Origin: Fidelibacterota bacterium
GTDB taxonomy: Bacteria; Fidelibacterota; Marinisomatia; SCGC-AAA003-L08; D37C17
Assembly: GCA_030748955.1 (NCBI GenBank)
Contig: JASMKZ010000003.1
Location: forward strand, 1 to 64,000
Direction of reading: 5' to 3'
DNA: 64,000 bases
The stretch's first letter is position 1. Each line of letters opens with the position of its first letter. Of this stretch, positions 30,757 through 62,535 are shown piece by piece. Under the pieces are notes generated by a model that saw only the letters and a program-made list of their open reading frames with translations, made no database searches and was not told where the DNA came from. The translations under genes were made by a program, and so were the position numbers.

Positions 30757-30837
30757 AGAATAAGCGCCTAATTATTTACTACTGAGATACATACAAACTG
30801 GATTTGGAAGGAAAAATTGGAGAGGTAGGCTTAACTG
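30757..30837 (+). repeat. 81-bp direct repeat, copy 2
   Basis: It matches 29602-29682 at a constant offset of 1155 bp and about 85 percent identity by eye. Its end runs 7 bp into the 3' end of the GH16 gene. Confidence 0.75.
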
Positions 30838-32234
30838 TTGAGTATGATATTAACTAATACAACAATATCAAGTACATTTAGTTGTCCATCTTCATTTACA
30901 TCACCTGCTACATCGTAGTCATTACTAAGTATCAGGTTTACTGTCATTACTATATCAATAACATTTATTATACCATCAGCATTCACATCACCTAATACGT
31001 TATCAGATTCAGAGAGTTCACATGAACCAAAATAGTAGGGCCCCAAAACCAAATCTGTGTTTGAAAAAGTGAACTGGCGGTCGCTCCATTGGCCAAATCC
31101 ACATTCTGCAGGTAAATCTGGCTCCCAACCTGGACTATCCCAATAATCATAAAATCCATTCCTGAATTTATAGGTATAGGTGCCTGGGGATATTGAAACT
31201 GTTAACGACCAAATACCATTCCCTTGATCTGACATTAATAATCCTGAAGGGCCCGCTAATTGTGAATCTCCACCTGAAACATATACTCCTGTTCCGTCTA
31301 CCTCTTCATATTGCATATCTACCAAGAAGGTAACTGTTGGGTCTATTGGTATATCAACACAATTCCCATTATCACATGTTTGGCCTTCATCACATATTAT
31401 ATCTGCGCATGAATCTTGATATTCATATACTCGCACATAATCAATCTCCATGGGACTTTCAGTGAAACCGGAAGCAATACTTGGCTCTATAGCAATATTT
31501 AATAATAAATACAGTTCGGAATCAAATGGCCATGTATCTGAATTATAATTAGCTGGATCATAGGTGTAATGAATATTTCCATCCACACTAAATATCATTT
31601 CCTGTGCAGACCAATCGATAGTGTATATATGGAATTGACTTGAAGCAGTTGATATATATTGACCTCCTAAATTGATTGTACCCCCGTAACTTGAAGGGGT
31701 ATGAATGGCACTTTGAACATAATTTTGGTTAGATCCCCAGTGTTCCATAATATCTACTTCGCCACAAGCAGGCCAGGGGGTGGTTCCATAACCCTGAGTC
31801 TCCCAATACGCTCCTGGTTCGTTAATATTCTTTCCTAACATCCAAATTGCAGGCCAGGTGCCAAAACCTTGAGGTAGTTTTGCTCTAATTTCCACTTTCC
31901 CATAAGTGAACGCATATTTCGAGTTTAGCCTTGCTGAAGTATATTCTTTTGTGTGCCCCTGATCTGTATAGGTTTCCTTCTTGGCAACAATCTTTAAGGT
32001 GCCATTACTTACATACGAGTTGACTATACGGTCCGTATAATGTTGTACTTCACCATTATACCACCCCCCACCCAATGGTAACTGTGTTTGATGGAACCAA
32101 TTTGCTGAATTAATTGCACCGTTACCGTCAAATTCATCAGACCAGACTAATTGCCAATCCTGAGCGTGTCCGAAACTAATAGCAAGAATAGAAACTAATA
32201 ATGCATAATATTTTATTAAAGTCGTTAAAAACAT
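30831..32234 (-). CDS. Secreted GH16 endo-beta-1,3-glucanase (laminarinase) with CBM-like and dockerin-like domains
   Basis: It should cut laminarin outside the cell. A signal peptide (cleavage after residue 24, GHA-QD) leads into a GH16 domain (26-275), with WSDEFDG near the start and the catalytic motif E159-V-D161-I-M-E164. A short Cys-rich linker (CADIICDEGQTCDNGNC) follows. Next comes a beta-sandwich module (about 298-405; VTFLVDMQ, YTYKFRNG, QWSDRQF) that resembles starch-binding CBM folds. The last 60 residues carry two dockerin-type calcium loops (GDVNADGIINVID, GDVNEDGQLNVLD). The CBM module is nearly the same as the one in the GH16 gene at the right edge. The 467-residue gene is last in a minus-strand run that includes the CotH gene. 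Confidence 0.92.
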   Translation of the reverse strand: MFLTTLIKYYALLVSILAISFGHAQDWQLVWSDEFDGNGAINSANWFHQTQLPLGGGWYNGEVQHYTDRIVNSYVSNGTLKIVAKKETYTDQGHTKEYTSARLNSKYAFTYGKVEIRAKLPQGFGTWPAIWMLGKNINEPGAYWETQGYGTTPWPACGEVDIMEHWGSNQNYVQSAIHTPSSYGGTINLGGQYISTASSQFHIYTIDWSAQEMIFSVDGNIHYTYDPANYNSDTWPFDSELYLLLNIAIEPSIASGFTESPMEIDYVRVYEYQDSCADIICDEGQTCDNGNCVDIPIDPTVTFLVDMQYEEVDGTGVYVSGGDSQLAGPSGLLMSDQGNGIWSLTVSISPGTYTYKFRNGFYDYWDSPGWEPDLPAECGFGQWSDRQFTFSNTDLVLGPYYFGSCELSESDNVLGDVNADGIINVIDIVMTVNLILSNDYDVAGDVNEDGQLNVLDIVVLVNIILNS

Positions 32235-32251
32235 TCAATTCCTGATTTTAA

Positions 32252-32270
32252 ACTTTTTGTAGTAAAAAGT
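32252..32270 (-). terminator. AT-rich hairpin between CotH and GH16 genes
   Basis: ACTTTTT and AAAAAGT form a 7-bp stem with a 5-base loop in the 86-bp gap. It is low in G-C pairs and may be only a weak terminator. Confidence 0.25.
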
Positions 32271-32320
32271 ACTGCTATATACATTTTTATCATATTACCC
32301 TATAAAAAGACTTTATATGT

Positions 32321-35886: not shown

Positions 35887-36678
35887 TTATTGGTACACTT
35901 TAATCCAATCAATTATAAATTGAGATTTTCTAAAATCATCCTCCGGATCGCCTGGCCAAAACCCTCCTATAGCTTGATTTATAATTAAAAAATAATTGTT
36001 ATCAAATGGCCATTTATCATCAAAATAATCTTTTTTATCAATTCTATGATATATATTGTTATCAATAAACCAAACCAGTGATTGTGAATTCCACTCCAAT
36101 CCAAATGTATGAAATTCTATATCCATATTATCTATTATCATATTTCCACCTATTTGGGTGTTATTCATATGATTATACTTTTCAGAATGAATTGTACCAT
36201 AGATAATATCTTCATTATTTACATGTTCCATAATATCGATTTCACCACAATTTGGCCAGCCATCAGTGTATATAGTTTCACTGAGCAGCCAGATTGCCGG
36301 CCATAGACCTTTTTGTCTTGGTATCTTTGCCCTAATTTCAAACCTCCCATATTTCCAACGGGACTTTCCGCTTGTATTTATTCTACCTGATGTATAATTA
36401 GCTGTGCCGTAGCTTTCTTTAATTCCCTGAATCACTAAATTATTTTTTTCTATATATATATTATCTTGCTTGTCAGTGTATGCTTGCAATTCATTATTCA
36501 CCCATCCCGGGTCTCTAATTTCTATATTCCATTTATTTGTATCTAGACGACTCTCATTAAATTCCTCACTCCAAATAAGCTGATAATCACTTTTTAATAT
36601 CCCAATATGAGTTAGATTACTTTTATAAGACATACAAGAAAGTAACAATAATAAAATGGAAAGTATTAATATTTTCAT
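35887..36678 (-). CDS. GH16 endo-beta-1,3-glucanase, lipoprotein
   Basis: The 263-residue protein is a bare catalytic domain with a lipoprotein signal: hydrophobic residues 3-14, then LLSC with Cys15 as the lipid site. It is probably anchored in the outer membrane. WSEEFNESRLDTNKW begins the domain and E146-I-D148-I-M-E151 is the active site. WPAIWLL and the C-terminal IDWIKVYQ are also family features. It lacks the CBM and dockerin tail of its neighbours. It follows pyruvate kinase by 57 bp. Confidence 0.92.
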   Translation of the reverse strand: MKILILSILLLLLSCMSYKSNLTHIGILKSDYQLIWSEEFNESRLDTNKWNIEIRDPGWVNNELQAYTDKQDNIYIEKNNLVIQGIKESYGTANYTSGRINTSGKSRWKYGRFEIRAKIPRQKGLWPAIWLLSETIYTDGWPNCGEIDIMEHVNNEDIIYGTIHSEKYNHMNNTQIGGNMIIDNMDIEFHTFGLEWNSQSLVWFIDNNIYHRIDKKDYFDDKWPFDNNYFLIINQAIGGFWPGDPEDDFRKSQFIIDWIKVYQ

Positions 36679-38225: not shown

Positions 38226-39119
38226 TCAATTTTTCTGTTTAATGAACATCGCTGCACCCAGATGTGTAGAATTTAACTGATCTTTACTTGCCTTAATTTT
38301 AATGGAATGGTAGATAAATGATGGGCTGTACTCAGAGAGGACAGCCTCCATTGAACCTTTAAAATACGGAAATGCTCTCGATATCCCCCCACCCAAGGTA
38401 ACAACAGCCGGATCTAGGAGGTTAACCAGATGGCTAATGACTAATCCCAGTTTATGCCCAAACTCTTGCCAGATATTTTGGGCTTTTACATTACCATCTT
38501 CAGCCATTTGAAATAGTTCTTTAGGAGATTTTACCTCTGAAAATTCTATTATTGATAATTTTTCGATGCCCTCTATGGAAATCTCATCTTCCCAGACGCC
38601 CCATTTTACTGGAGAAATACCATATTCAGCTCCCATGCCATGAGAACCGGTAAATACTCTCCCTTCTATGACAACTCCAACTCCTAGTCCCGAACCCAGG
38701 GTCAAGCCAGTAATTACACTTTCTTTGCGGTAATGTCTATACCACTCCCCCCATACAAAGAGATTCGCATCATTTTCTATTTTCACAGGAATACCCAGTT
38801 CAGATTCCATTAACCCCGCCAAATTTGTATTTTGCAGCATGGTTAAATTAGGGGTATCAAGAATCAGTCCTTTCCGGCTGTCCAATGGCCCCGGTGCAGA
38901 TATGCCTAGGCCAACAATCTCATCCATACTGATATTATGTTCACTGTATAGCCTTTTAAGTTGATTGGTAAATCCAGAAATGAGGTCTGGCTTACTACCA
39001 TATTCCTTTATATAAGACTCCATTGACATACCAACTTGATTGAAATCTAAATCAAACAAGGCAGAAGTAAAGGTGGTTCCGCCAATATCCATAGTGATAA
39101 TATATTTTTTCTTATTCAT
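38226..39119 (-). CDS. ROK-family sugar kinase (probable glucokinase)
   Basis: It probably phosphorylates glucose freed from laminarin. The 297-residue protein has the ATP motif DIGGTTFTSALFDLD, the catalytic Asp in ENDANLFVWGEW, GLTLGSGLGVGVV and the second phosphate loop VTLGGGISRAFPYF. The zinc-binding CXCGXXGC motif of most ROK proteins is absent; after GSHGMGAEYGISPV the sequence reads KWGVWEDE. It starts 23 bp after the SurA-like gene. Substrate is inferred from context and not from the sequence. Confidence 0.85.
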   Translation of the reverse strand: MNKKKYIITMDIGGTTFTSALFDLDFNQVGMSMESYIKEYGSKPDLISGFTNQLKRLYSEHNISMDEIVGLGISAPGPLDSRKGLILDTPNLTMLQNTNLAGLMESELGIPVKIENDANLFVWGEWYRHYRKESVITGLTLGSGLGVGVVIEGRVFTGSHGMGAEYGISPVKWGVWEDEISIEGIEKLSIIEFSEVKSPKELFQMAEDGNVKAQNIWQEFGHKLGLVISHLVNLLDPAVVTLGGGISRAFPYFKGSMEAVLSEYSPSFIYHSIKIKASKDQLNSTHLGAAMFIKQKN

Positions 39120-39142: not shown

Positions 39143-40585
39143 TTATCTGCTTTTTCCATAGTCGATAGTATGATTATCAGTTAATATTGGAAATTGTGGT
39201 ATCGGGCTCTGATATGCTGCATTTTGATTTGATACGTGCATAGGTATTGAAGTTAAATTAATCGAATTGAATAATTCAAGATTAATCTGGATGTTATCAC
39301 TGTATTTATTAAATAGTTCCTTTATAATTGGATTTAAATATTCAATATCGCTGGTATTGGAAGATTTCGATTGTAATAATTTAGCACGTACACTAGTGGC
39401 AATAAAATGCTCTTTCCACATATCGACATATTGATTAATATATGGGTCATCATCATAGTTGAGCTCTAATGCTTCTTGTGTTAAGTAATAATTTCTAACC
39501 AGATCTGCAATTGCATTTTTAACTGCATCAGGAAATTCCGCTTTTGAGATTTTCTTTTTTCTAAAAACAAGAGGATGACTGTTTATTAAATTCTGCAAGT
39601 CAGACATTGTCCAATCTTTTCCATCTAGGTTAAATATTATTTCATTTTCATCGATATTCACGGAAGTGTATCCCCCACTTAGCACCAGATTATTTTCAGG
39701 CCAGATGGCTTTTTTGAATAATTCATTTTTTGAATTTTCAAATTGGAGCATCTCATAGTAGAGATTATTAATCAGCTTTGTAAATGAATTCTGACTAAAT
39801 TTTAATGTTTTATTATTCATAACTGCATGTATATAATCTGCATACTGCTCAATATTTCTCAGCTGGGTAAGGTGTTCCTTAACCTTTCTTAGGTATTCTC
39901 GCTGACTGCCCTCGGAGAGTCTTCTTTCTGACCGCCAACCTTCAACACGCATGATGATAGATGTACCATCTTTAATATTCAGAGGGCCAATAATCTCATG
40001 TTTATCTAATCTATTTGAAAAGATTGCCCGGTGTAAACGATAATTATGCTCCGAAAAGAATGAAACATTTCGGCGGACTATTTCTCCGGCATCAAACATA
40101 CTATTTATTATTTCTGCTGAATGGTTAAGATTCAGCAGTGTATCAGACACAACATCATTGGGCAATGTAATAAACGAGAGGTGGTATGTACGTTCAGCTG
40201 TTTTCAGGTAATTGTTTAATTCCTCACTACTTAGTGCATTAGACTGACTCTTAGCAAAGAAGAGCTTTTCCCGCATACTCTGTGTCTTCAGGCCATTAAG
40301 AAAATTGGAGATTGTATGTAGATTGAATAATGGCTCACCTTCAATAGCCAATAGCTTTTCAGCAATAAGAGAGTTTAGAACAATCTGTTTATGCACATTA
40401 TTTCCCTTACTGCAATAATCGGGTCTTAATACATATTCGGCTCTTTGTATAAATTCATTTTTTAATATTATATGATTATCTATTTGGGCAAGAACAGAAT
40501 TTTTAAAAGTAAATGGCTCACTTTTATTTGAAGTACAGCTATGAATAACTATTATAATGATGAGAAGGAGTGACTTATACATCAT
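39143..40585 (-). CDS. SurA/foldase-like lipoprotein, unknown role
   Basis: The 480-residue protein has a lipoprotein signal (VIHSC near residue 17). Its first part (SVLAQIDNHIILKNEFIQRAEYVL and LIAEKLLAIE) resembles the N-terminal helical domain of SurA-type chaperones and peptidyl-prolyl isomerases. I cannot place a clear parvulin domain; a second helical region with a similar pattern (KAEFPDAVKNAIADLVRNYYLTQEAL) appears near residues 345-375. I infer a periplasmic or inner-leaflet chaperone for the outer-membrane proteins encoded just upstream. The PorV-like gene ends 18 bp before it. Confidence 0.6.
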   Translation of the reverse strand: MMYKSLLLIIIIVIHSCTSNKSEPFTFKNSVLAQIDNHIILKNEFIQRAEYVLRPDYCSKGNNVHKQIVLNSLIAEKLLAIEGEPLFNLHTISNFLNGLKTQSMREKLFFAKSQSNALSSEELNNYLKTAERTYHLSFITLPNDVVSDTLLNLNHSAEIINSMFDAGEIVRRNVSFFSEHNYRLHRAIFSNRLDKHEIIGPLNIKDGTSIIMRVEGWRSERRLSEGSQREYLRKVKEHLTQLRNIEQYADYIHAVMNNKTLKFSQNSFTKLINNLYYEMLQFENSKNELFKKAIWPENNLVLSGGYTSVNIDENEIIFNLDGKDWTMSDLQNLINSHPLVFRKKKISKAEFPDAVKNAIADLVRNYYLTQEALELNYDDDPYINQYVDMWKEHFIATSVRAKLLQSKSSNTSDIEYLNPIIKELFNKYSDNIQINLELFNSINLTSIPMHVSNQNAAYQSPIPQFPILTDNHTIDYGKSR

Positions 40586-40603
40586 CCAGGGAATTGATTC
40601 TTA

Positions 40604-41635
40604 TTAAAACGTGAGACTCAGGGTATAATTATGTGTATTATCAAACGTCCAAATGGTTCGATAACAATAATCCAGCTTAATGCCTTCACCACTTTTCAAC
40701 TGATATTTCATACCTGCTCCAAAAGCCGGTCCGAATTCTCCGTCAACCATGAATATACCCTTTAATCCTGAACGCAGGTAAAATTTTGTTCTAGCGCTTG
40801 GAGCAAAGGTAAACTGAGAGCCCAGATTCAAGTACTCACTGTTATTATTTGAATGGATGGCATCCACAGCTAGAATTAATTCCGAAGTCTGGCTAACCCA
40901 TGGTTTAGCTGATAGCCCAATACGGAACAGTAGAGGCAGTTCCCATCCCTGAGTTTTGAACTGACCTTCTACATTGCCATAATTACCATATTCTGAGGAT
41001 ATATCAATGGGGTTTAACAAATCAATTCCGCCATATTTTATTTTAGTGCCATAATTTGAAATGCTCATACCTATTCTAATACCATCTTTCTGGGCATCTG
41101 TCATTGAAAGAAAAGGTGTATTGATAAGAACCCCTAAATCAATGGCTGCAGCACCGGCACTACTATGCCATATTTTCGATGATATGTATTTCACGCTGGT
41201 GCCAAAAGAAAACCAGTTAACAAACTTTTTTGCATATGATAATCCAATAGAATATTCCTTTGGATGATAATATTCTCCAGTTCCATCCTGATTTTCAATG
41301 TTTGTCACTTCAATGCTCCCATAATCTAGATAGTTAAGGCTAATTCCGACGCTATTGGCATTATCAATCTTTATGGCAGATGCAATAATGTACCGATTGG
41401 TTTCTGCTATCCAGGGTTCATGAATTAACAGTAGTTCATTCTGATTGAGGTATACAATATTTGCAGGGTTCCAATAGATGGAGGTTACATCATGGGTCAT
41501 ACATACATAGGCCCCGCCCATGGCAGAAGCAGCACTGCCTACATCGATTTCAATAAAATTTGCAGATGTAGTTCCATTTCTATTCTGAGCAAATAAACTT
41601 GAGAAGATTATTATGGATGTAATAATTCTATACAT
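40604..41635 (-). CDS. PorV/PorQ-like outer-membrane beta-barrel protein
   Basis: The 343-residue protein has a signal peptide (ending SLFAQ) and then FIEIDVGSAASAMGGAYVCMTHDVTSIYWNPAN, the typical start of the PorV/UPF0164 family. It ends in a strand with terminal Phe (YTLSLTF). PorV takes part in type IX secretion by shuttling cargo from the translocon to the surface. This copy lies 9 bp after the gene for a secreted protein with a T9SS-like C-terminus, so it may serve that protein alone. Confidence 0.8.
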   Translation of the reverse strand: MYRIITSIIIFSSLFAQNRNGTTSANFIEIDVGSAASAMGGAYVCMTHDVTSIYWNPANIVYLNQNELLLIHEPWIAETNRYIIASAIKIDNANSVGISLNYLDYGSIEVTNIENQDGTGEYYHPKEYSIGLSYAKKFVNWFSFGTSVKYISSKIWHSSAGAAAIDLGVLINTPFLSMTDAQKDGIRIGMSISNYGTKIKYGGIDLLNPIDISSEYGNYGNVEGQFKTQGWELPLLFRIGLSAKPWVSQTSELILAVDAIHSNNNSEYLNLGSQFTFAPSARTKFYLRSGLKGIFMVDGEFGPAFGAGMKYQLKSGEGIKLDYCYRTIWTFDNTHNYTLSLTF

Positions 41636-41644
41636 ATTAAACTA

Positions 41645-44600
41645 CTACTTTATCACTCCAAACTTACCAACTTTTGACCCTACTGACCCTTCAGTGAAAG
41701 ATTCAACATGGTACACATACATTCCAGCAGAGACTTCCAACCCCTCATTGGTGAGCAGGTCCCAGTATGCAATACCCTTATTTGTAGAATTAAATACATA
41801 TATTTCATCTACTAGAACTCCGCTTATGGTATATATTTTTATCTTACATCTGGCTGGCAAGTGTGTGAACATTAATTTTCTTCGCTGATTAAGATCACTG
41901 TTTAATATTGCCTCTTCAAAGACATTGGTTCCCACGTATGGATTGGGTACAACCCTGATGTCATCTAAAGAATTATTTTCCACTTGAACGTTTATACTGT
42001 CCTGAAACGAGAATGTCTGAAAATGAAGCGTGTCAGTTGACCAGAATGGACGTTTAAACTCAATTGAATATACATCCCCCGGATCGGGGTAAGTACTCTC
42101 CAGTATCCCTCTAAAATCAATAACAAAACTAGTTCCCAGCCACTTTCCGTCATTATCAACCGAGCCCACCAATACAAGATCTTTTAATTTATCATATTCT
42201 CCATTGCCATCCTGATCATGAACAACAAGACTCGCATTGTGATTAAAAGACATATTTTTTACTTTAAAATCAAATATTGAATTCAAGAGTAATGCATTAG
42301 CATTAGGTGTTAGACCATTATGATCATAAATAAAATCAGATTGTAGTACTTTATCTTCAATATAAAGATTATCTGAACTTAAAAATGTAATCTCAAAGTC
42401 CCAAGGGACAATTTTTGATTCCCTGTGATCGATATAAGGGAAAGGTAAAATAATGATTTCTTTATCTGGTGAAAAAACTTCGTACCATCCTTGTGATTTA
42501 ATGACTGCTGACTCAACATCCTGCACAATAGTCAACTGAAGCCCTTCAAAAATGTCTGTGATAATATCTTTTGATGTGTTGAGTGTCCAATAATCACTAC
42601 CTGATTCAAAAATGATATTCTGATTTATGGACTTGGGGTCTCCTGCTTCGCTATACCCTCCTGTTTCACTGTATACAAGACTCAGGCTATCACCTGATCG
42701 GGAAAATATTTCAAATCCACTAGTTACAATCATAAGAGGCAAGGTATTACTATTATTGAACAATGTATCATTTTGGAAGGTGAGATAATAATCCATATTA
42801 TCCTTGATTAAATCTTTAGCCATAATATTTACTGAAATCTCACCCGTTCCCAATAGGTCCTGATTGCTTACATTAATAGTTGGTTCAATAAAACTCGAAG
42901 AAGGTACACGGGGAATGACAACCGCCACATTGGGTCCAGATCCTACAACATATTCATTATCATCCAAATCGATGATCCAATTATTCTCTGAAGGCGGTAT
43001 GCCATAAATCAACTCTTCTGTGGGAGCTAAACCATAATCGTATGCAACTAATGCATAATAATATGTTCTCCCATTTTGCACATCTGTATCAATAAAATGA
43101 TGTTTGAGCCCACTATCATCTCCCATATAGTAACCGGTACCGAATACTGGAGCAAAGTTTGAAAAGCCTGTTACTCCGTCAATCTTATCACACTGAAATA
43201 TTGGCAGATTAAACAGGTCATCTCCAAAACCATCTGTAATTAACTGAGAGTCTTTGAAATATTTATCTGTTGCTTTATATATTTTATAGCCTTCAAAATC
43301 ATACTGAAGTGAATCAGGTAAAAACTGATCTCGTGATGATTCTGCAACATTATTCCATGACAAAATTACCTGACCATCTCCAGCTTCTGCATAGAGAGTG
43401 GGCATTCTAGGCGGTGTTGCAAAACGGTAATCCGTTTCATAAATAAGCTGGACCGTTGTTTTCAGTTGAAATAATGCCGGTGCATCAATTGAAGTCTCTC
43501 CAGGGGATCCTACGAGGGGGTCAAAGCTGTGAAGTTCTGCCATTGAAATACGCTCTGTCTGGCCTGATAAAAGTGAAAATGTGCCGGATGCAAAAAGTTC
43601 AACTAAGTTTGAAGGAGTAGCAGAATATTGAACAAGCACGGTATCTGCCATCATTTCATATAAAAGAGAATCGTTATAAAACCAGACGCCATTATTGCTG
43701 GGTAATTTGCCTCCTTCATCTATGGCAAACAGCTGAAATGTAGTCAAACCAATCATATCTGACTCTGAAATATCAGTTTCTCCAAAATTAGGTTCACATC
43801 CTCGGCCTTCTGCGCAGTCAGGCTCACCATTACATTCGCCTTCATCGGGACCACTGTAATTCAAGTCTCCTGGTCCTATACCATCTAACCCAACGTCATC
43901 ATTAGGATTACATGAACCATCATCATTGATGGTACTACTAGTCCAATCCTGATCCTCATCTCCTGACCAATGAGCTTTAAGGTCCGATTCTTCCAGATTA
44001 TAAAATTCTAAGAACTGATTTACATCAGAAATACCACCAAATGGATTTTCTTCCCAAAAACCTTTGTCGTAGCTCCTGCTTTCATCTACAAGACCATCCT
44101 CATCATTGTCAGTATTATCAGTGGATATACCTGGGCTTTCTAAAAATGCAAAGCCCATAATACCGGGGACAACTGTTCCAAGGCCAACACCATCAATATC
44201 CCATGAATATGATAAATCCAAATAGGTGTCAAAATATCCCACTTCATCTGTATTTCCATCTGATCCAATGGCATTATCCACCCAATATCCAAATGAGACC
44301 TCATTGATATCAAAATCAGATATATTGGTGATATTGTATTCAAAGAACAGTGCATTTTTCACCAGTGGATTATTCCATTGGAATCCACGTGTTTCCACAC
44401 GAATTCCTAGACCACCCCAGGGTAGTCCCGAACCGGCAGAGGCATCACTCTGTATCAATTTACCAGGCCGAGGATAATATTTATAATCAGGCCCCTGAAG
44501 ATTTTCCTGGTCCTGTGCATCGTTGGCAACAAAATAGGTTTCCAGGTCCGCATACTGAACCCCTTTACCAAAGCGTCCATCCCAAACACCTTTCCATTTT

Positions 44601-45145
44601 GTATCATTTCCAGAAGCAGGCCATCCTTGTGTCGGCCAACTACCCGGCTTATCACTCATAGCCGGTTCATCCTGATCCGGATTAAAATATCCAAATGGTG
44701 GATAAAATCCCCAGTCTAATGTATTTGAAGGGTTATGATCCATCTCTTCACGATAACTGGTCTGCAGAAAATAAACTTCATGCTTAGAAATACTTTGGTC
44801 TTCAATCTGCCCTAAATCATCAATAATAACCGTATCCACTGTTGTTGGATTATTATCATCCTGTATATACACCTTGGCTGCAATTAAAAGGCCAATACCA
44901 TCCACCATTCTAGTGCCTGTTCCGTCATCAGGCCAAATGGATACATTGTCCAGTCCTCCAGGTGCCCAGTCTGATAATTCCGTGGTATTCTGGAAGTAGA
45001 GCAAGATTCGATTCCCATCCATATGCGATGCCCTAATTGCACTTGGGTCGCCGGCCAAATCATCTGGACCAGCATAGTCAGATTGACCTGTTAACAGGAT
45101 GAGAAATATTAATAAGCTTACGTATTTACTGAAATATTTTCTCAT
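41645..45145 (-). CDS. Large secreted protein with T9SS-type C-terminal domain
   Basis: The 1166-residue protein has a signal peptide (MRKYFSKYVSLLIFLILLTGQS). The first third is rich in Trp, Asp and Gly. An Asp-rich calcium-binding-like stretch (TDNTDNDEDGLVDESRS) lies near residue 350. A fibronectin-like segment (ILSWNNVAESS) occurs near 590. The end (VVPNPYVG, LPARCKIKIYTISGVLVDE, GMYVYHVES) is a T9SS-type sorting/adhesion domain. I know no function for the main part. It overlaps the TonB receptor gene by 4 bp (ATGA) and occupies the place SusD has in Bacteroidetes loci, so a surface glycan-binding partner is my inference. Confidence 0.7.
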   Translation of the reverse strand: MRKYFSKYVSLLIFLILLTGQSDYAGPDDLAGDPSAIRASHMDGNRILLYFQNTTELSDWAPGGLDNVSIWPDDGTGTRMVDGIGLLIAAKVYIQDDNNPTTVDTVIIDDLGQIEDQSISKHEVYFLQTSYREEMDHNPSNTLDWGFYPPFGYFNPDQDEPAMSDKPGSWPTQGWPASGNDTKWKGVWDGRFGKGVQYADLETYFVANDAQDQENLQGPDYKYYPRPGKLIQSDASAGSGLPWGGLGIRVETRGFQWNNPLVKNALFFEYNITNISDFDINEVSFGYWVDNAIGSDGNTDEVGYFDTYLDLSYSWDIDGVGLGTVVPGIMGFAFLESPGISTDNTDNDEDGLVDESRSYDKGFWEENPFGGISDVNQFLEFYNLEESDLKAHWSGDEDQDWTSSTINDDGSCNPNDDVGLDGIGPGDLNYSGPDEGECNGEPDCAEGRGCEPNFGETDISESDMIGLTTFQLFAIDEGGKLPSNNGVWFYNDSLLYEMMADTVLVQYSATPSNLVELFASGTFSLLSGQTERISMAELHSFDPLVGSPGETSIDAPALFQLKTTVQLIYETDYRFATPPRMPTLYAEAGDGQVILSWNNVAESSRDQFLPDSLQYDFEGYKIYKATDKYFKDSQLITDGFGDDLFNLPIFQCDKIDGVTGFSNFAPVFGTGYYMGDDSGLKHHFIDTDVQNGRTYYYALVAYDYGLAPTEELIYGIPPSENNWIIDLDDNEYVVGSGPNVAVVIPRVPSSSFIEPTINVSNQDLLGTGEISVNIMAKDLIKDNMDYYLTFQNDTLFNNSNTLPLMIVTSGFEIFSRSGDSLSLVYSETGGYSEAGDPKSINQNIIFESGSDYWTLNTSKDIITDIFEGLQLTIVQDVESAVIKSQGWYEVFSPDKEIIILPFPYIDHRESKIVPWDFEITFLSSDNLYIEDKVLQSDFIYDHNGLTPNANALLLNSIFDFKVKNMSFNHNASLVVHDQDGNGEYDKLKDLVLVGSVDNDGKWLGTSFVIDFRGILESTYPDPGDVYSIEFKRPFWSTDTLHFQTFSFQDSINVQVENNSLDDIRVVPNPYVGTNVFEEAILNSDLNQRRKLMFTHLPARCKIKIYTISGVLVDEIYVFNSTNKGIAYWDLLTNEGLEVSAGMYVYHVESFTEGSVGSKVGKFGVIK

Positions 45146-48100
45146 TTATAACTGATAGCTAAATTCAGCTTTATCTGCCTTGGAGCAGAGTACATGGCAG
45201 GATTCTCATATTGATCGTATACATCCGTAAAGGTACTTCTGTACCCCAGAATTTCAGTTGAATTTACAATATTGCTATATGCCCTTCCTGTTTTTGGATA
45301 CACCCAAATATCGTTTAATGTATCAAATAAATTATATATTGAGAATGACAGCCTGGCCTCTAAATCATTATTTTTCCATAAACGATAGTAGCCAGTAACA
45401 TCAACACTGTAGTTGGCAGGCTTGTAATCATTGTTGGGAAGCAGGTTAATAAGTGCAGTGACAGATTGAGAAACGGGTTCAAAAGTATAAGGAGTCCCTG
45501 AATTATAATATGCTGTTGCTGTTAATCCAAAATCATCTCTATTATACGCCAATGTTGTATTAAAAGTATGCCTTTGATCCCAACTCATGGGAATCAGTTT
45601 TGAAACAGGGTCCTTATTCTCACCTTCACGATTAAAGGATTGAAGAGGTGTATCTGCATTCCCCCGAGTGTATTGAAGCGTATAATTGCAATAGATGGCA
45701 AGGGCATTAAAGTTAACATCATACTTTAATTCTAATCCCCTTACATTACCATAGTCTTTATTTGAGTAGAGACCATATTTCACCTGATTGTATGTCTTCA
45801 AAACTTTTGTACCAAGAAGATTATATATATCCCGATAAAACATATTTATTTCTAGCGCCATAAGAGCATTTAGTTTTTGCCATAATCCAATTTCATAGGT
45901 CACTGTTTTTTCAGCTTCAATATTGGGATTTCCCAAAACGGTTTCATAATCACCTGTAGGCACAATCCAGTTGTTATGAGCATACATTGAATACATTGGC
46001 GGCATTTGGAAAAAATGACCATAACTGAAATGAACAATTGCAGCATCAGCTACCTGGTATGCAATCCCCAGTCTGGGGCTCCAAAAGGAAAATTCATTAG
46101 CCACCAAACTATCTGATTGAGAAACATTACTAATGGTATTTGCAGGATTCCTGTAATCAGAAGGATAGTAGCAGTTGGGGTTGAAATAGTCATACCTTAA
46201 GCCCAGATTTATTACCATTTCATCATATTCTGCTTTATCCTGTATAAAAAAAGAAAATTCACTTGGATTAACATCAAAGATGTCATCATCGGGAGATTGA
46301 ATTGAGTCTGGTTGAATATAGGCAGAATAGACCCCAACAAGGCTGGAGTCTGGATTTTCAATAATAAGATACTCTTTGTTATTAATTTTATAATCAGAAT
46401 AGTCAAGACCCGTTTTCAAACTATGGTTCCTATTCAATTGCATATTTAGTTTAATGCTTGATGTATGTTCCGTGGTCGTTCTACGGGTATGAGATTTGTC
46501 CATCCCCCCTGTTGAAAAACCCGGTACACCTGCAGAATAATTATCTGATATATAGCCCGTGCTATAGGGGTTTTTAAATAAGTAGCGCCCATAATAGTTT
46601 GACGTATATGAATGCTTCCCTTCAATAAAAAAAGAGCGGGTGATCATATAGTTCCACTGCATAGCCGTTAAGGAGTTACTGCTTTCACTTTTTGGTAAAC
46701 CAAAAGGATTATATTTATAGTAATGATTATACTCAATCCAATTATTTTTATTCCTTGAATGCAATATGGAAAAACGAAGATCATCAATAATGTGAAATGT
46801 AATTTTGCTAAACAGAGAGGAATTTTTTGTTGCATTCAAGGGTACAAATATGTCTGAAGGAGTTCCAATATGGTATCCAATATCTACACCTGGTATAAAT
46901 ATTGTATTTTTATATGGGTTATTCATATCAGTGGTGTTTTCATAATAATCACCCAGCGCAATGCACTGAGTTTTACTCATTTTTTCTCTGACTGTATAAT
47001 TCTCAATAAATGTTCCACTTAATTCTCTTTCACAATAGAGTTGATTATGGGTTGGAATGATACCTTGATTAAATGAACATACCGACAGTAAAATCTCACA
47101 TTCTCCATATTCATTGACGCATACGGATTCATCAAATATATAATGATTTTCTTCATCCAAAATAGCTACACCCTTGCTACTCATACAGTGGGATTCCATT
47201 TCATGTTCCCCCGTATGTTCAGATAGCCAACTGCTAGATGAGTCGCTGAGATAATTGCTCTTATCGGTTGGATTAAAGTAATGTAGCCCATTTAAGTGAT
47301 TATAGTTATCTTCTAACCTGTAATTAACAAAAAAGTTAACTTTACCTTTGATGATTGGGCCACTGAGCTGAAAACGATAATCTAGGCTTCTATTCTCATC
47401 AAGCTGATCTATTCCCGGAAAAACTTCAACGTTTGACGTAATATAATTTGCATATCCGGATTGCAGAGAGGTCTTAAATTCGTCACCACCAGATTTAGTT
47501 ACCTGGTTAACAACGCCACTCATTGCTTTGCCATACTCTGCATTGAATGTGCCGGTAATTACCTCCAATTCGCTGACTGAGCCAGTTTCAAGCTCTGTCG
47601 TGCTAGATGAACCACCATATACCTCATCAACTTTAATGCCGTCAACAAGGTAGGTAACTTCTGTACTGCGCCCACCCCTGAAATGGCCTGCTACAATACC
47701 CGCCTGCATACCTATAATTTGCCCAATGTTTTCAACTGGCATAATATCAATTTGATCAGAGGATATATTCTTTACTGAACTGGTTTGATCTTTTTTAATT
47801 GAAACCTGGTCTGCCTTTACCACTACCACATCACCTTCCAATACTGATGGAGCCATCTTAAGGGTTAATGGAGTAGTACGGTTAACCGAAACCCGTACTT
47901 CTTCAATCATTGCGTTCTTATACCCAATCATACTTAGAGAAAGATTGTATGAGCCAGGCGGGAGATTAAGAAGAAAAAAATCTCCATTTATATCCGTGGC
48001 TGTCCCCAGATTAGTTCCAAGGAGCATAATATTCACTCCGATTAAAGCCTCTGAAGTTTCCACATCAGATATTTTACCTGTAATCTTGCCAGTAGTCTGA

Positions 48101-48162
48101 GATAGACAAACTGTTGTAATTAGATTACTCAAAAAAAACAATGTTAATATTCTTAATTTCAT
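45142..48162 (-). CDS. TonB-dependent outer-membrane receptor with carboxypeptidase-regulatory domain
   Basis: This active outer-membrane importer is powered by TonB. Of its 1006 residues, a signal peptide (cleaved near CLSQ-TT) precedes a carboxypeptidase-regulatory-like domain (about 24-105; TDINGDFFLLNLPPGSY). The plug follows (about 125-240; GMQAGIVAGHFRGGRSTEVTYLVDG), then a 22-strand-type barrel. A long Cys-containing loop near residues 325-390 is unusual. The start is close to SusC-like proteins, but no SusD gene is nearby. Its position in the laminarin region suggests laminari-oligosaccharide uptake. It follows a GH16 gene by 63 bp and overlaps the next gene. Confidence 0.88.
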   Translation of the reverse strand: MKLRILTLFFLSNLITTVCLSQTTGKITGKISDVETSEALIGVNIMLLGTNLGTATDINGDFFLLNLPPGSYNLSLSMIGYKNAMIEEVRVSVNRTTPLTLKMAPSVLEGDVVVVKADQVSIKKDQTSSVKNISSDQIDIMPVENIGQIIGMQAGIVAGHFRGGRSTEVTYLVDGIKVDEVYGGSSSTTELETGSVSELEVITGTFNAEYGKAMSGVVNQVTKSGGDEFKTSLQSGYANYITSNVEVFPGIDQLDENRSLDYRFQLSGPIIKGKVNFFVNYRLEDNYNHLNGLHYFNPTDKSNYLSDSSSSWLSEHTGEHEMESHCMSSKGVAILDEENHYIFDESVCVNEYGECEILLSVCSFNQGIIPTHNQLYCERELSGTFIENYTVREKMSKTQCIALGDYYENTTDMNNPYKNTIFIPGVDIGYHIGTPSDIFVPLNATKNSSLFSKITFHIIDDLRFSILHSRNKNNWIEYNHYYKYNPFGLPKSESSNSLTAMQWNYMITRSFFIEGKHSYTSNYYGRYLFKNPYSTGYISDNYSAGVPGFSTGGMDKSHTRRTTTEHTSSIKLNMQLNRNHSLKTGLDYSDYKINNKEYLIIENPDSSLVGVYSAYIQPDSIQSPDDDIFDVNPSEFSFFIQDKAEYDEMVINLGLRYDYFNPNCYYPSDYRNPANTISNVSQSDSLVANEFSFWSPRLGIAYQVADAAIVHFSYGHFFQMPPMYSMYAHNNWIVPTGDYETVLGNPNIEAEKTVTYEIGLWQKLNALMALEINMFYRDIYNLLGTKVLKTYNQVKYGLYSNKDYGNVRGLELKYDVNFNALAIYCNYTLQYTRGNADTPLQSFNREGENKDPVSKLIPMSWDQRHTFNTTLAYNRDDFGLTATAYYNSGTPYTFEPVSQSVTALINLLPNNDYKPANYSVDVTGYYRLWKNNDLEARLSFSIYNLFDTLNDIWVYPKTGRAYSNIVNSTEILGYRSTFTDVYDQYENPAMYSAPRQIKLNLAISYK

Positions 48163-48225: not shown

Positions 48226-49782
48226 TTAATCACATGGCTGCTTATATACTTTAACATAATCAACAATGAACTCAACGGGGAATATTTCAGGTGATACTGT
48301 TCCTCCCCAGGTGCCCCCAATTGCTAAATTTATCAATAAATTAAATTTCTGATCAAATGGCCACAGTTCAAAGCCAGAGCCAAGATTATCATATGTTAAT
48401 ATTATCTGTCCATCAACAAAAAATATAATTTTGTCTTTCCTCCAAATCATTGAATAGATATGTGAGGTGCTAATATCTCCTACAGTTTTAGATTTTGTCT
48501 GTGACTGCGGCATACCATCATTATCAGGATGATTTGGATCAAAATTTGTATTATAAATAGCATTATGAATAGATGAATGTACATTATTTGGGTCTTTACC
48601 AACATATTCCATAATATCTATTTCCCCGCTTGCAGGCCACTCCCCGTAAATATTTTCAGTAGGCAGCATCCAGATAGCAGGCCAGGTTCCTTCTCCAAGT
48701 GGCAGCTGCGCTTTGACTTCTACTTTAGCATATTGCCAATCTCCTTTATGCTTTGTAGTTATTCTGCCAGAGGTATAAAGTGCATCAGCTACACCATTAT
48801 CATCAGGGTCATATGTTTCTCTGAGTGCTCGAATGTGTAATTTACCATCTGCCAGATAAATATTATCAATTTCATCTGTGTAAGCCTGCTTTTCTTCGTT
48901 AAATGCCCCAGCTGGCCATTTTTCAATATTCCATTTATCAAGATCCAATTCATCACCATCAAATTCGTCTTGCCAGACCAGTTCGTATTCTACATATGAG
49001 TCGCCTCCACACACACCACAATCATCTTCTACAGCACTGCCACCACATTCACCACTACAATCTAAGACTGCATCACCATCACATTCTCCTGTGCAGTCTA
49101 CAATTGCATCACCTCCACACTTGCCCTCACAATCACGACAATCATCCTTGCAATTGTTAGCAACAACCCAGTCACCGCAATTTCCACATACGTCAGTAAT
49201 ATTACTCCCGCCGCACTGCCCTGCACAGTCTTCTCTTCTCCCATCGCAGTCACATCTACCTTCCTGAATACCTGTACAGCCGCATTCATATATTGCCCCT
49301 AGTCCATTGCAAATGCCACATTCATCGAATATTCCCGAAGGGCAGGAGCAACCAAAGAGATCATAAACATTTCCATCACAAATACCACAAATATCCTCAA
49401 CTGCATTGCCACCGCAAACTCCTGAACAATCAAGTCCATTTTCATCTAAATTATTACCAGTTGCTATGCAATTTCCATCACAGTCATAATTACTATCTAA
49501 GATTCCATCATCATCCATATCAAATATGGTCCCATCACACACGCCACATTCATCTACAACAGCAGAGCCGCCGCATTCACCGGCACAATCAACATCAACA
49601 AGGCAGTTATCATCACAGTCATAGTTCTCTTCAGCAAATTCACAGCTATCATCATCCAAATTTGCACTTACATCAAAGTTACATGCCGTTTTTTTTGTAC
49701 ATCCAGGGACTTCACTGATCTGCGGATTGTTACAATAAATACACAGCAGCAGAAAAATGATTATATAGAAGGTTTTATACAT
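48226..49782 (-). CDS. GH16 endo-beta-1,3-glucanase with long Cys-rich repeat stalk, lipoprotein
   Basis: The 518-residue protein begins with a lipoprotein signal (LLLC, Cys14, or CIYC, Cys17). Residues 28-260 hold 37 Cys in short repeats such as CGGSAVVDECGVCDG and CSGECGGSAVEDDCGVCGG. The first module (CTKKTACNFDVSANLDDDSC) is of a kind seen in marine FCB-group surface proteins. The GH16 domain follows (265-518), with WQDEFDGDELDLDKW and the active site E387-I-D389-I-M-E392. The repeats probably form a disulfide-braced stalk that holds the enzyme away from the outer membrane. It is the first gene of the run that leads into the TonB receptor, 63 bp away. Confidence 0.92.
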   Translation of the reverse strand: MYKTFYIIIFLLLCIYCNNPQISEVPGCTKKTACNFDVSANLDDDSCEFAEENYDCDDNCLVDVDCAGECGGSAVVDECGVCDGTIFDMDDDGILDSNYDCDGNCIATGNNLDENGLDCSGVCGGNAVEDICGICDGNVYDLFGCSCPSGIFDECGICNGLGAIYECGCTGIQEGRCDCDGRREDCAGQCGGSNITDVCGNCGDWVVANNCKDDCRDCEGKCGGDAIVDCTGECDGDAVLDCSGECGGSAVEDDCGVCGGDSYVEYELVWQDEFDGDELDLDKWNIEKWPAGAFNEEKQAYTDEIDNIYLADGKLHIRALRETYDPDDNGVADALYTSGRITTKHKGDWQYAKVEVKAQLPLGEGTWPAIWMLPTENIYGEWPASGEIDIMEYVGKDPNNVHSSIHNAIYNTNFDPNHPDNDGMPQSQTKSKTVGDISTSHIYSMIWRKDKIIFFVDGQIILTYDNLGSGFELWPFDQKFNLLINLAIGGTWGGTVSPEIFPVEFIVDYVKVYKQPCD

Positions 49783-52082: not shown

Positions 52083-53078
52083 ATGAAATGCACGCTAAAA
52101 GATTTAGCCCGTGAAACAGGATTTTCCGTCTCAACTGTGTCACGCTTTCTCTGTGGTAAAAGGCGTTATTATAATCAAAAAGAAAAGTTGATTTTTGATA
52201 CAGCAAATAAATATAATTACCCATATATTCAAAACTTTTATAATAATGGAATAAAATTAAAAATATCTCTAATAACCACTATTCGAAAGGGTGAATTCTT
52301 TTCAGCATTACTATCAGATTTTCATCTAGCGGCAAAGAAAAGTAATTGTGATATTGAAGTAATAGATATTGAAAAAGATGATTTTATATACAATAAAATA
52401 GGATACTTTGCTGAGAATAAAGATGGATTATGCATATTATTCCCCGATTTAAATAAAGAAGATTGCAACATAATAGAATCCTATACCAATAAGATCCCTA
52501 TTTTATCACTTTCTCCAATTATAGATGCTTCCGTTAATACAATTACTTTTGATAATTATAAAGGTGGTTACCTCGCCGCAAAAAACTTAAAAGAGCTGGG
52601 TTATGAGAATATTGGAATAATTTCAGGCGATGATACTGTATTTGAAGCAGTTCAAAGAAGAAATGGATTTATAGATTATCTCGCATCTAATAACATGAAA
52701 TGTCAATGGGAATTTAAAGGCGACTATTCATTGGAATCAGGCAACAAAGCCTTTATAGATTTCCATAGCAAGAAGTTAAGTAATATAGGTATTTTTGGAG
52801 TGAATGATTATATGTGCTTTGGATTTATGAAATTGGCATTATTATCAGGCATCAATATTCCGGAAAAATTATCAATTATAGGATTTGACAATACGCCATT
52901 TTGCAATAATACAATACCAGAATTATCATCCATATCTACTGACTTTATTGAACTTGGAAAAAGATCCCTATCATCCCTTGAAAAATCTTTTATTAATTAT
53001 AATAAAACCGAACTTTTCACAAATTTAGTCCCAGTGGAACTTATAGAAAGATCCAGCACAAGAGACTTAATAAAATGA
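52083..53078 (+). CDS. LacI-family transcriptional regulator
   Basis: The 331-residue protein has the N-terminal LacI helix-turn-helix (LKDLARETGFSVSTVSRFL, residues 4-22), followed by a periplasmic-binding-protein-like sensor (GYLAAKNLKELGYENIGIISG, IGFDNTPFCNNTIPELSSI). It probably senses a beta-glucan-derived sugar and controls its own operon and perhaps the divergent GAPDH genes. Its stop overlaps the GH17 start by 4 bp (ATGA), so regulator and enzymes are made from one message. Confidence 0.93.
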   Translation: MKCTLKDLARETGFSVSTVSRFLCGKRRYYNQKEKLIFDTANKYNYPYIQNFYNNGIKLKISLITTIRKGEFFSALLSDFHLAAKKSNCDIEVIDIEKDDFIYNKIGYFAENKDGLCILFPDLNKEDCNIIESYTNKIPILSLSPIIDASVNTITFDNYKGGYLAAKNLKELGYENIGIISGDDTVFEAVQRRNGFIDYLASNNMKCQWEFKGDYSLESGNKAFIDFHSKKLSNIGIFGVNDYMCFGFMKLALLSGINIPEKLSIIGFDNTPFCNNTIPELSSISTDFIELGKRSLSSLEKSFINYNKTELFTNLVPVELIERSSTRDLIK

Positions 53079-53989
53079 AAAGCATTCTTTTCATCTTCCT
53101 TTCATGTATTTTTGCAAACCTTCCATATCATAGCAACGCAGTCTGCTATGGCCCTTTTAGAGATGGGCAGAGCCCTGGAGGCATTGACCCAACAGAAAAA
53201 CAATTAACAGAAGATCTTAGAATTTTATCAAAATATTGGTCCGCTTTCAGGATGTACGGCAGCAGAGGAAGCACCGAGAAAGTTCTTAAAATAATAGAAA
53301 GTGAAAAAATAACTATAAAACTATTTTTAGGTGCATGGATAGCCAATGAAACTAAAGACTCAACGGCATCTGTATCCAATATGAAAGAACTTAATAAGAC
53401 AATAGAATTGGCAAATAAATACCCTGAAATTGTTGAGGCAATAATTATTGGCAATGAAACACAGGTTTTCTGGTCATGGAATAGAGTTAACTATAATACA
53501 TTGAAAAAATATATACGATATGTTAAATCAAAAACTAAACAACCAATAACTACGGCAGATGATTTCAATTTCTGGAACAAGCCTGAGGGGTTAGAACTGG
53601 GATCAGAAGTTGACTTTATCATGGTTCATATTCATCCATTGTGGGCAGGTGCTCTGCTGAATGATGCGCTTCCTTTTGTTTCAAGAATTTATGATGAAAT
53701 AAGTGTTCTATACCCTGATAAACAAATAGTAATAGGAGAAACAGGATGGGCTACTTCGGTGCATACTGAAGGCGAGCAGTCAGAGCTAATAAATGGAATC
53801 GCAGGCATCAAAGAGCAATTAATATTTTATAATTCAATAAATGACTGGTCAAGGGAAAACGGTGTCCTGTCATTCTTTTTTGAAGCTTTTGATGAAAAAT
53901 GGAAAGGTGGTGAGCATCCTAATGAAGTAGAAAAACATTGGGGCTTAATTTATTCGGATAGAAAACCAAAGCATAATCTCAAAAAATGA
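53075..53989 (+). CDS. GH17 beta-1,3-glucanase, exported
   Basis: It cuts beta-1,3-glucan or its oligosaccharides. The 304-residue protein has a signal peptide (MKSILFIFLSCIFANLPYHSNA) and then CYGPFRDGQSPGG, the typical family start. The acid/base is Glu128 in IIIGNETQ and the nucleophile is Glu222 in VIGETGWA. There is no extra binding module or sorting domain, which suggests a periplasmic enzyme acting after TonB uptake. A lipoprotein form (Cys11) is possible but less likely. It overlaps both neighbours by 4 bp. GH17 with GH16 is the classic pairing for laminarin in marine Bacteroidetes. Confidence 0.92.
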   Translation: MKSILFIFLSCIFANLPYHSNAVCYGPFRDGQSPGGIDPTEKQLTEDLRILSKYWSAFRMYGSRGSTEKVLKIIESEKITIKLFLGAWIANETKDSTASVSNMKELNKTIELANKYPEIVEAIIIGNETQVFWSWNRVNYNTLKKYIRYVKSKTKQPITTADDFNFWNKPEGLELGSEVDFIMVHIHPLWAGALLNDALPFVSRIYDEISVLYPDKQIVIGETGWATSVHTEGEQSELINGIAGIKEQLIFYNSINDWSRENGVLSFFFEAFDEKWKGGEHPNEVEKHWGLIYSDRKPKHNLKK

Positions 53990-55635
53990 AACTTATTTTC
54001 AAATATATTCCTTATGCTATCGTAGGAATATTTGCTTTTCAACAATGTGCAGACTCTACAACTAAAAAGAACTACAAAGGACTTGTTGTATCACAGGAGC
54101 AACAAGCTTCATGGATCCGGAATTTTAATCCCTTAACCCCCGGGGGATCTGCAAGGTGGCCAACAGCAGCAGGTATCTATGAACCCTTAATGATCTATAA
54201 TTCCATGAAAGGAAAATATATCCCTTGGCTGGCAGTTAAACATGAATGGAATGTAAGAAATGACATATTAATATTGGATATAAGAAAAGATGTCAGCTGG
54301 TCAGATAGTCAACCATTTTCAGGAAAGGATGTTTTATTTACTTTTAATTTGCTTAAGGAATTTCCTGCATTTGATATACGAGCCTTATGGTCATATCTGG
54401 AAAGTGTGAAACTATTAAATGAATACGAAGTGGAATTTACGTTCTCTTCTATTTACGTACCTGGCTTAGATGCCATTGTAGGTCAAACCATTGTTCCAGA
54501 GCATATATGGTCAAAAGTAGAAGATCCAATTAAGTTTACTAACCCAGACCCAGTAGGCACAGGCCCCTATACTGAAATATTAAAGTTTCAAAATCAAGTA
54601 TGGGAACTAGGGAAAAACCCAAATTACTGGCAACCGGGAAAACCCAAAGTAGAAAAACTTACCTTTCCCGCTTTCCCTACTAATGTCCAGGCTACGTATG
54701 CACTAATAAATGGAGAGGTAGACTGGGCTGGTAATTTTATCCCCGCAATTGATCGTATTTTTGTTGATAAGAATCCAGAGAATCATCATTATTGGTTTCC
54801 ACGTTCAGGTGGATCAATATTTTTATATCCAAATACTACAAAAAAACATTTAAACAATAAAGCATTCAGGAAGGCTATCAGCTATTCGATTGATAGAGAG
54901 TTGATTGCTAAAGTCGCCATGTATGATTATACAGTTCCTGCAGATATAACGGCACTGTCTGAAGGGATGTCAAGATGGAGAGAGAATAAAAAACGAAACG
55001 AAAACTGGAATAAATTCAATCGTGATAAAGCAATAAGTCTTTTAGATAGCTTGAAATATTCATTTTCAAAAGATAAAACTTCATATGACAATAATGAACT
55101 AGCTTTTGAGATTATTGTAGTGAGTGGCTGGTCAGATTGGATTCGTGCTGCACAAATAATTTCCAGAAACTTAAAAGCTATTGGAATTAATGCTTCAGTG
55201 CGTACCTATGATTTTGGTACTTGGTTCAGCAAGCTCCAAACAGGAGATTTTGACTTGGCAATTGCATGGGCTGAAAAAGGTAATACTCCTTATAATCTCT
55301 ATAGAGGCCTCATGTCACAAAAATTAGTAAAACCAATTGATGAAACTTCATCTCTCAATTGGCACAGATATGGCAATGCGGAAATAGATGTTTTGTGCCA
55401 GCAATATGAGAAGACATCAGATCCAAAATTGATAAAAAATATTATATTTAAAATGCAGGATATCTTTATTGAAAATCTGCCTGCAATCCCATTATTCTCT
55501 GAACCAAGCTGGGGTGAATACAATACATCTAGGTTTACAAATTTCCCCAATGAGCAAAATCCTTACGCACAGCTTTCTCCGAATAATGTCCCCGAAAATC
55601 TCTTAGTCCTTATCGAACTAGAGCCTGTTAAATGA
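53986..55635 (+). CDS. ABC transporter substrate-binding lipoprotein, family 5
   Basis: The 549-residue protein has a signal ending at FQQC (Cys22), which would be lipidated. The mature part is a family 5 binding protein (LTPGGSARWPTAAGIYEPL, GKDVLFTFNLLKE, PDPVGTGPYTEIL, AFRKAISYSIDRELIAKVA). Family 5 proteins bind peptides, but a known subgroup, for example in Thermotoga beta-glucoside loci, binds cellobiose and laminari-oligosaccharides. The flanking GH17 and GH1 genes favour oligosaccharides here. It overlaps the GH17 and permease genes by 4 bp each. Confidence 0.9.
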   Translation: MKLIFKYIPYAIVGIFAFQQCADSTTKKNYKGLVVSQEQQASWIRNFNPLTPGGSARWPTAAGIYEPLMIYNSMKGKYIPWLAVKHEWNVRNDILILDIRKDVSWSDSQPFSGKDVLFTFNLLKEFPAFDIRALWSYLESVKLLNEYEVEFTFSSIYVPGLDAIVGQTIVPEHIWSKVEDPIKFTNPDPVGTGPYTEILKFQNQVWELGKNPNYWQPGKPKVEKLTFPAFPTNVQATYALINGEVDWAGNFIPAIDRIFVDKNPENHHYWFPRSGGSIFLYPNTTKKHLNNKAFRKAISYSIDRELIAKVAMYDYTVPADITALSEGMSRWRENKKRNENWNKFNRDKAISLLDSLKYSFSKDKTSYDNNELAFEIIVVSGWSDWIRAAQIISRNLKAIGINASVRTYDFGTWFSKLQTGDFDLAIAWAEKGNTPYNLYRGLMSQKLVKPIDETSSLNWHRYGNAEIDVLCQQYEKTSDPKLIKNIIFKMQDIFIENLPAIPLFSEPSWGEYNTSRFTNFPNEQNPYAQLSPNNVPENLLVLIELEPVK

Positions 55636-62501: not shown

Positions 62502-62535
62502 TTTATCTCCTTAATCTTCTTATTATTGATTCTTA

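Follow-up and report, generated by a model that had tools for sequence, protein, structure and literature searches.

SusD-like lids are taken as the hallmark of the TonB receptors that capture glycans, and metagenomes are commonly assessed for glycan uptake by looking for SusCD pairs. The four-gene module analyzed in this study resembles the SusCD (RagAB) systems of Bacteroidota in that a TonB receptor with a CarboxypepD-like extension is encoded beside a large putative surface partner inside a polysaccharide locus, but it contains neither SusD nor SusC. Unlike SusD, the partner, denoted here the cargo, is a mostly-beta protein of 1166 aa that is not predicted to be a lipoprotein; it ends in a type IX-like domain and comes with a barrel of its own.

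The other closely related systems belong to type IX secretion. PorZ is anchored at the surface by PorQ and PorU by PorV (PMC5562754), and the C-terminal domains of PorU and PorZ are not removed, being 96-108 aa long compared with 67-88 aa for the cleaved domains (PMC11285876). For type B cargos, secretion and anchoring depend on a cognate PorP/SprF barrel, whose gene often lies downstream (PMC9143113, PMC12618676), and in Flavobacterium johnsoniae one single PorV is common to all type A cargos (PMC12618676). The module would share with the PorZ-PorQ and PorU-PorV pairs a surface protein that retains its C-terminal domain and has a PorV/PorQ-family barrel as its holder (PMC5562754, PMC11285876). 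However, those pairs are housekeeping secretion parts, whereas the pair in the module is encoded in one operon, occurs in multiple copies, and is associated with a TonB receptor and with glycan enzymes. With the type B systems (PMC9143113, PMC12618676) it shares a cargo gene followed by the gene of a proposed dedicated shuttle and anchor barrel, but both the class of the C-terminal domain and the barrel family are different.

The window, that is, the whole 64-kb stretch of DNA analyzed here, is part of a 1.79-Mb genome assembled in 355 contigs. The organism is taken to be a marine member of Neomarinimicrobiota, a largely uncultured phylum also named Marinimicrobia, SAR406, or Fidelibacterota. 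The list of open reading frames of the window contains four consecutive module genes, all on the minus strand. They encode the TonB-dependent receptor of 1006 aa (45142..48162), the cargo, predicted to be secreted (41645..45145), a PorV/PorQ-family outer-membrane barrel of 343 aa (40604..41635), and a SurA/PrsA-like lipoprotein of 480 aa (39143..40585). The receptor and cargo genes overlap by 4 bp, and gaps of 9 bp and 18 bp separate the cargo from the PorV-like gene and the latter from the SurA-like gene, respectively; the initial annotation had described four coupled genes with exactly these coordinates and gaps, and the re-reading of the frames reproduced them.

The module is surrounded by genes of sugar utilization, in agreement with its initial interpretation as glycan-related. 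A GH16 glucanase with a Cys-rich N-terminus (48226..49782, minus strand) is located 63 bp upstream of the receptor, and a ROK-family sugar kinase (38226..39119, minus strand) 23 bp downstream of the SurA-like gene. Domain matches identify three more GH16 genes on the minus strand, one at 35887..36678 and two with a dockerin-like repeat at 30831..32234 and 62536..63867, as well as a GH1 gene (59241..60623, minus strand). The plus-strand region 52083..59156 encodes a LacI-like regulator, recognized by eye from its sequence, a GH17 enzyme, and an SBP_bac_5-type ABC importer. Judging from these predicted functions (four GH16, GH17, GH1, the ROK kinase, and the ABC importer), this is a beta-1,3-glucan (laminarin-type) locus. 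Glycoside hydrolases, a regulator, and transporters are clustered as in a polysaccharide utilization locus, and the arrangement recurs in other genomes. Several GH16, CotH, and CBM48-type proteins of the window (30831-35701 and 60639-63867) contain dockerin type I-like repeats, and tandem glyceraldehyde-3-phosphate dehydrogenase genes are found beside the locus (49963-51960), a matching pair adjoining the module in another locus (L084).

Elsewhere, the enzymes encoded around the module include GH16, GH2, GH3, GH5, GH9, GH30, and GH130, and its other neighbors are LacI regulators and sodium:solute symporters or sugar ABC importers. Since the enzymes differ between clades, we suggest that the module provides a general means of uptake, which has been adapted to several different glycans. 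It might be argued that the unit imports a non-glycan substrate, for instance a vitamin or a metal complex, and that the adjoining glucanases are incidental; indeed, the receptor matches the vitamin B12 receptor model TIGR01779 weakly. Nevertheless, even in unrelated phyla the module is found among genes for glycoside hydrolases, sugar regulators, and sugar importers, and the enzyme sets change from clade to clade, making this explanation very improbable. A CBM9 protein of approximately 860 aa with a type A sorting domain is often encoded just upstream of the receptor (30 loci, for example L110:4531-7116); it may be a surface protein and, instead of the cargo, what actually binds the glycan.

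The receptor contains the TonB barrel and plug domains and an N-terminal CarboxypepD_reg extension. It scores 62 bits against the SusC/RagA model TIGR04056, compared with a cut-off of 368, and the match is confined to the first 130 residues; thus, by its sequence, it is outside the SusC/RagA family. SusD (PF07980) has no match in the host genome. It was found in 34 of 119 genomes of the phylum, on contigs other than those of the listed module copies with one exception, a contig (G201:C29) that carries both SusD and the module approximately 67 kb apart. Among the wider relatives, 8 of 20 genomes contain SusD, counted per genome and not per contig, and none was found among the clustered neighbor families scanned around the module. 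The module was thus rightly described as SusD-less, as regards both the host genome and the immediate vicinity of the module in its relatives.

Of the 245 genomes searched within the phylum, 223 encode relatives of the cargo, dozens of which are full length at about 50% identity, and the named close relatives come from "Candidatus Neomarinimicrobiota" genomes assembled from metagenomes. Further, in the phylum to which Stygiobacter belongs, cargo relatives occur in 82 of 148 genomes, many of them with several copies; cultured bacteria that carry the module include Stygiobacter electus (L172) and Melioribacter. When prokaryotes were scanned with one genome for each species, at least 570 relatives were obtained, and the best 79 of these loci belong to Neomarinimicrobiota, Calditrichota, KSB1, and Melioribacteraceae/Ignavibacteria, as well as to bins labeled by their depositors as Bacteroidetes, Chlorobiota, or Balneolaceae. 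In these best 79 loci, the receptor directly adjoins the cargo gene in 63 of 68 cases, and a PorV-like gene is at most two genes away in 60 of 67. In the phylum, the receptor, cargo, and PorV-like genes adjoin one another in 25 of 30 loci. The proposed four-gene order, for which recurrence had been the suggested check, is complete in 15 of these loci, and the receptor-cargo-PorV order, in a part of the cases followed by the SurA-like gene, recurs in Neomarinimicrobiota, Calditrichota, KSB1, and Ignavibacteria-type genomes. Neither of the two results initially named as refuting, a gene order that does not recur and a SusD homolog next to the receptor in relatives, was seen. The junctions between the module genes are short or overlapping in the relatives as well, and the genes stay associated even when reordered (receptor-PorV-cargo in L133, cargo-receptor-PorV in L137 and L153). 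Such recurrence in dozens of genomes means that the arrangement is not due to chance. A second set of receptor, cargo-like, and PorV-like genes is present in the host genome (L066, G000:C284, 7218-14660), downstream of a gene for a protein of 1551 aa, a stretch of which resembles GH16.

The cargo has a hydrophobic, signal-peptide-like N-terminus, a conserved and mostly-beta core (approximately residues 30-800) with EF-hand-like acidic motifs, a variable region, and the C-terminal domain; Fn3-like parts and a beta-sandwich architecture can be recognized. Taken alone, its sequence has no match in Pfam or in the PDB search, and comparison of the predicted structure gave neither a confident known fold nor a known carbohydrate-binding fold for the core. 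The only enzyme-like fold matches of the core, GH116 and GH94, have TM-scores of 0.14-0.17 and are too weak to be used. The possibility that the cargo is a SusD homolog was dropped, since neither its sequence nor its fold matches SusD.

The C-terminal domain of the cargo (41648..41953, minus strand; approximately residues 1065-1166) is conserved across the family, beginning with VVPNPY and finishing with GKFxVIK, and its length of about 100 aa is within the range of the PorU and PorZ domains. In family-level library scans, which covered the C-terminal 130 aa, PorZ was matched by 38, PorU by 37, and type A by 24 of 41 C-termini. For the domain from the window, the best match is PorZ, a weak one (E 1.5e-5) below the curated cut-off, the PorZ and PorU cut-offs being set for whole proteins and not reached by the isolated domain; the score with the type A model TIGR04183 is 18.4 bits, below the cut-off of 23. 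Searched against the PDB, a profile built from the domain retrieves PorU and PorZ. Both also rank among the first three hits when the predicted structure of the whole cargo is compared by fold, where the low whole-length TM-scores mean local similarity only. As a control, the type A model gives 46-52 bits for two classical type A domains from the host genome, neither of which matches PorZ; the CBM48/AMPK1_CBM-like protein of the window (60639..62501, minus strand), which carries a classical type A sorting domain, provides an internal control. PorZ is also the best match for two other cargo-like proteins of the host genome, each adjoining a PorV-like gene. Hence the domain appears to resemble the non-cleaved PorZ and PorU domains more closely than the cleaved type A domains.

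The type IX translocon protein SprA is encoded in the host genome (608 bits summed) and in all 16 genomes tested. The PorU sortase exceeds its curated cut-off in 9 of the 16, the host genome giving weak matches only. The motor protein GldM had no match in the 16 SprA-containing genomes of the phylum, a result made uninformative by the equally silent control genomes; the motor of this phylum may be too divergent or replaced. The presence of SprA together with the type IX-like C-terminus supports the earlier suggestion of a type IX cargo, and we predict that the cargo is very probably exported by this route. An export function was considered for the receptor too, as the TonB transporter Oar is reported to help in secreting PopC in Myxococcus (PMC6434023). 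This precedent and the combination of a CarboxypepD_reg extension with a barrel that is not SusC would be in line with a receptor that assists cargo secretion, but SprA is found in every genome tested, the C-terminus of the cargo is of the type IX kind, and the module lies in a sugar-utilization locus. Such a role of the receptor is therefore hardly to be expected.

The barrel encoded next to the cargo is a member of the PorV/PorQ family, scoring 190 bits with NF033709 (cut-off 90) and matching PorV in the PDB with E 2e-11. It is neither a canonical PorV nor a canonical PorQ, reaching 100 of the 250 bits needed for NF033710 and 95 of the 220 bits needed for NF033711, and it is not of the PorP/SprF family, as the Pfam scan returns PorV. 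The association of such barrels with PorZ-type C-termini, defined as those fitting PorZ better than type A, was analyzed in four genomes (G000, G003, G193, and G218) with approximately 10-19 PorV-family matches in each. A PorV-family gene directly follows 17 of 36 genes with a PorZ-type C-terminus but not one of the 150 genes with the strongest type A domains; the Fisher p of about 2e-14 is a guide only, because paralogs do not count as independent cases and type A genes were listed only down to 35 bits. In the same four genomes, such pairs also involve proteins other than the cargo. A PorZ-type gene followed by a PorV-family gene may represent a general rule beyond the module, the strong type A genes of this four-genome sample never showing this order.

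By analogy with PorZ and PorU, it is probable that the cargo is anchored at the surface by the co-encoded PorV-like barrel, which in the simplest reading is a dedicated collector and permanent surface tether. The pairing is not strictly one-to-one, since three tandem cargo genes share a single PorV-like gene in a few loci (L114 and L119, from KSB1- and Caldithrix-labeled genomes). The cargo had initially been proposed to be exported and then held at the receptor. Retention at the surface agrees with the predicted C-terminal domain, but the same domain, given the PorZ-PorQ and PorU-PorV precedents, makes the PorV-like barrel a likelier holder than the receptor.

The last gene of the module is more variable in its occurrence. 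The SurA-like protein of the window alone matches no Pfam family, but members of its family match the SurA_N_2, SurA_N_3, and Rotamase_2 (PPIase) models, and the family profile matches PrsA and SurA in the PDB (E 3e-7 for PrsA). The predicted structure (pLDDT 83.5) has PrsA, SurA, and a leptospiral relative as fold matches with probabilities of 0.9-1.0 but with E-values above 0.001. The lipid-acceptor Cys17 is nearly invariant across the family. The predicted similarity to the parvulin-type chaperones SurA and PrsA thus concerns the SurA_N and PPIase-type parts; in contrast to these chaperones, the module protein is a lipoprotein with an extra C-terminal helical part, is tied to one operon, and is missing from many versions of that operon. 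While both the PorV-like barrel and the chaperone had been regarded as dedicated to the cargo, for the barrel this is the simplest reading; the SurA-like gene has the character of an accessory, being present in a part of the module family only, mainly in the branch that contains the window.

The distances between cargo, barrel, and receptor sequences are correlated over 51 operons (r 0.91-0.96), the receptor-cargo correlation being the highest of the three, although vertical inheritance alone also produces such values and they cannot separate functional coupling from joint inheritance. One could imagine the cargo as an independent, SusE/F-like glycan-binding surface protein or adhesin that is anchored by the PorV-like barrel and co-expressed with the receptor but forms no complex with it. 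This would account for the beta-sandwich and Fn3-like architecture, for the loci with several cargo genes, and for the PorZ-type/PorV pairs formed with other proteins in the same genomes. It is less compatible with the immediate adjacency of receptor and cargo genes in 63 of 68 cases, with their overlapping junctions, which are reminiscent of susC-susD, and with the rank of the receptor-cargo correlation, and we regard an independent binder as rather unlikely. A role of the cargo in glycan capture for the receptor best explains their tight and nearly universal pairing in glycan loci, and the genomic evidence makes it fairly likely that the two proteins work together in glycan uptake. That the cargo forms a physical SusD-like lid on the receptor is a more doubtful proposal.

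On balance, we favor, with some reserve, the reading of the module as the outer-membrane capture and import unit of the beta-glucan locus, with a type IX-exported surface protein in the place of SusD. Under this scheme, the SurA-like lipoprotein, as a periplasmic chaperone of the operon products, would assist the barrels, the cargo, or both, and the cargo would cross the outer membrane via SprA, using its C-terminal domain. The PorV-like barrel would then collect the cargo at SprA and keep its uncleaved C-terminal domain, thus tethering it to the surface, as suggested by the PorZ-PorQ and PorU-PorV precedents and by the pairing of PorZ-type domains with PorV-family genes. Beside the TonB receptor, the tethered cargo would bind glycan or cover the pore, so that oligosaccharides released by the GH16 enzymes could pass into the periplasm. 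Finally, the ABC transporters or symporters and the intracellular enzymes, whose genes are present, would complete the pathway.

Taken singly, the parts of the module are all of known types, and two housekeeping proteins are already known to be anchored by barrels of the PorV/PorQ family. The new element is the co-operonic, multicopy receptor-cargo-PorV unit standing where SusCD would be expected, and there is a fair chance that it represents a distinct importer class; no description of the module was found in the open-licence papers on Caldithrix, Melioribacter, Marinimicrobia/Fidelibacterota, and type IX systems. More specifically, we tentatively propose a separate class of TonB-dependent glycan importers in which a three-part complex of the receptor, a type IX-exported cargo with an uncleaved PorZ-type C-terminal domain, and the cargo's own tethering PorV-family barrel does the work of SusD, and, jointly with this proposal and equally tentatively, that the class could be widespread in the FCB branches outside Bacteroidia. 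The existing rule of type IX secretion, in which all type A cargos share one PorV and each type B cargo has a PorP/SprF, would then be extended by dedicated PorV-family barrels for PorZ-type cargos. The pairing of a receptor with a large putative surface protein and its proposed anchor, in place of the SusD lid, suggests a so far undescribed mode of capture for polysaccharides, algal laminarin being one example. If lineages of the ocean, sediments, and groundwater use this SusD-free design, their polysaccharide uptake would go unseen.
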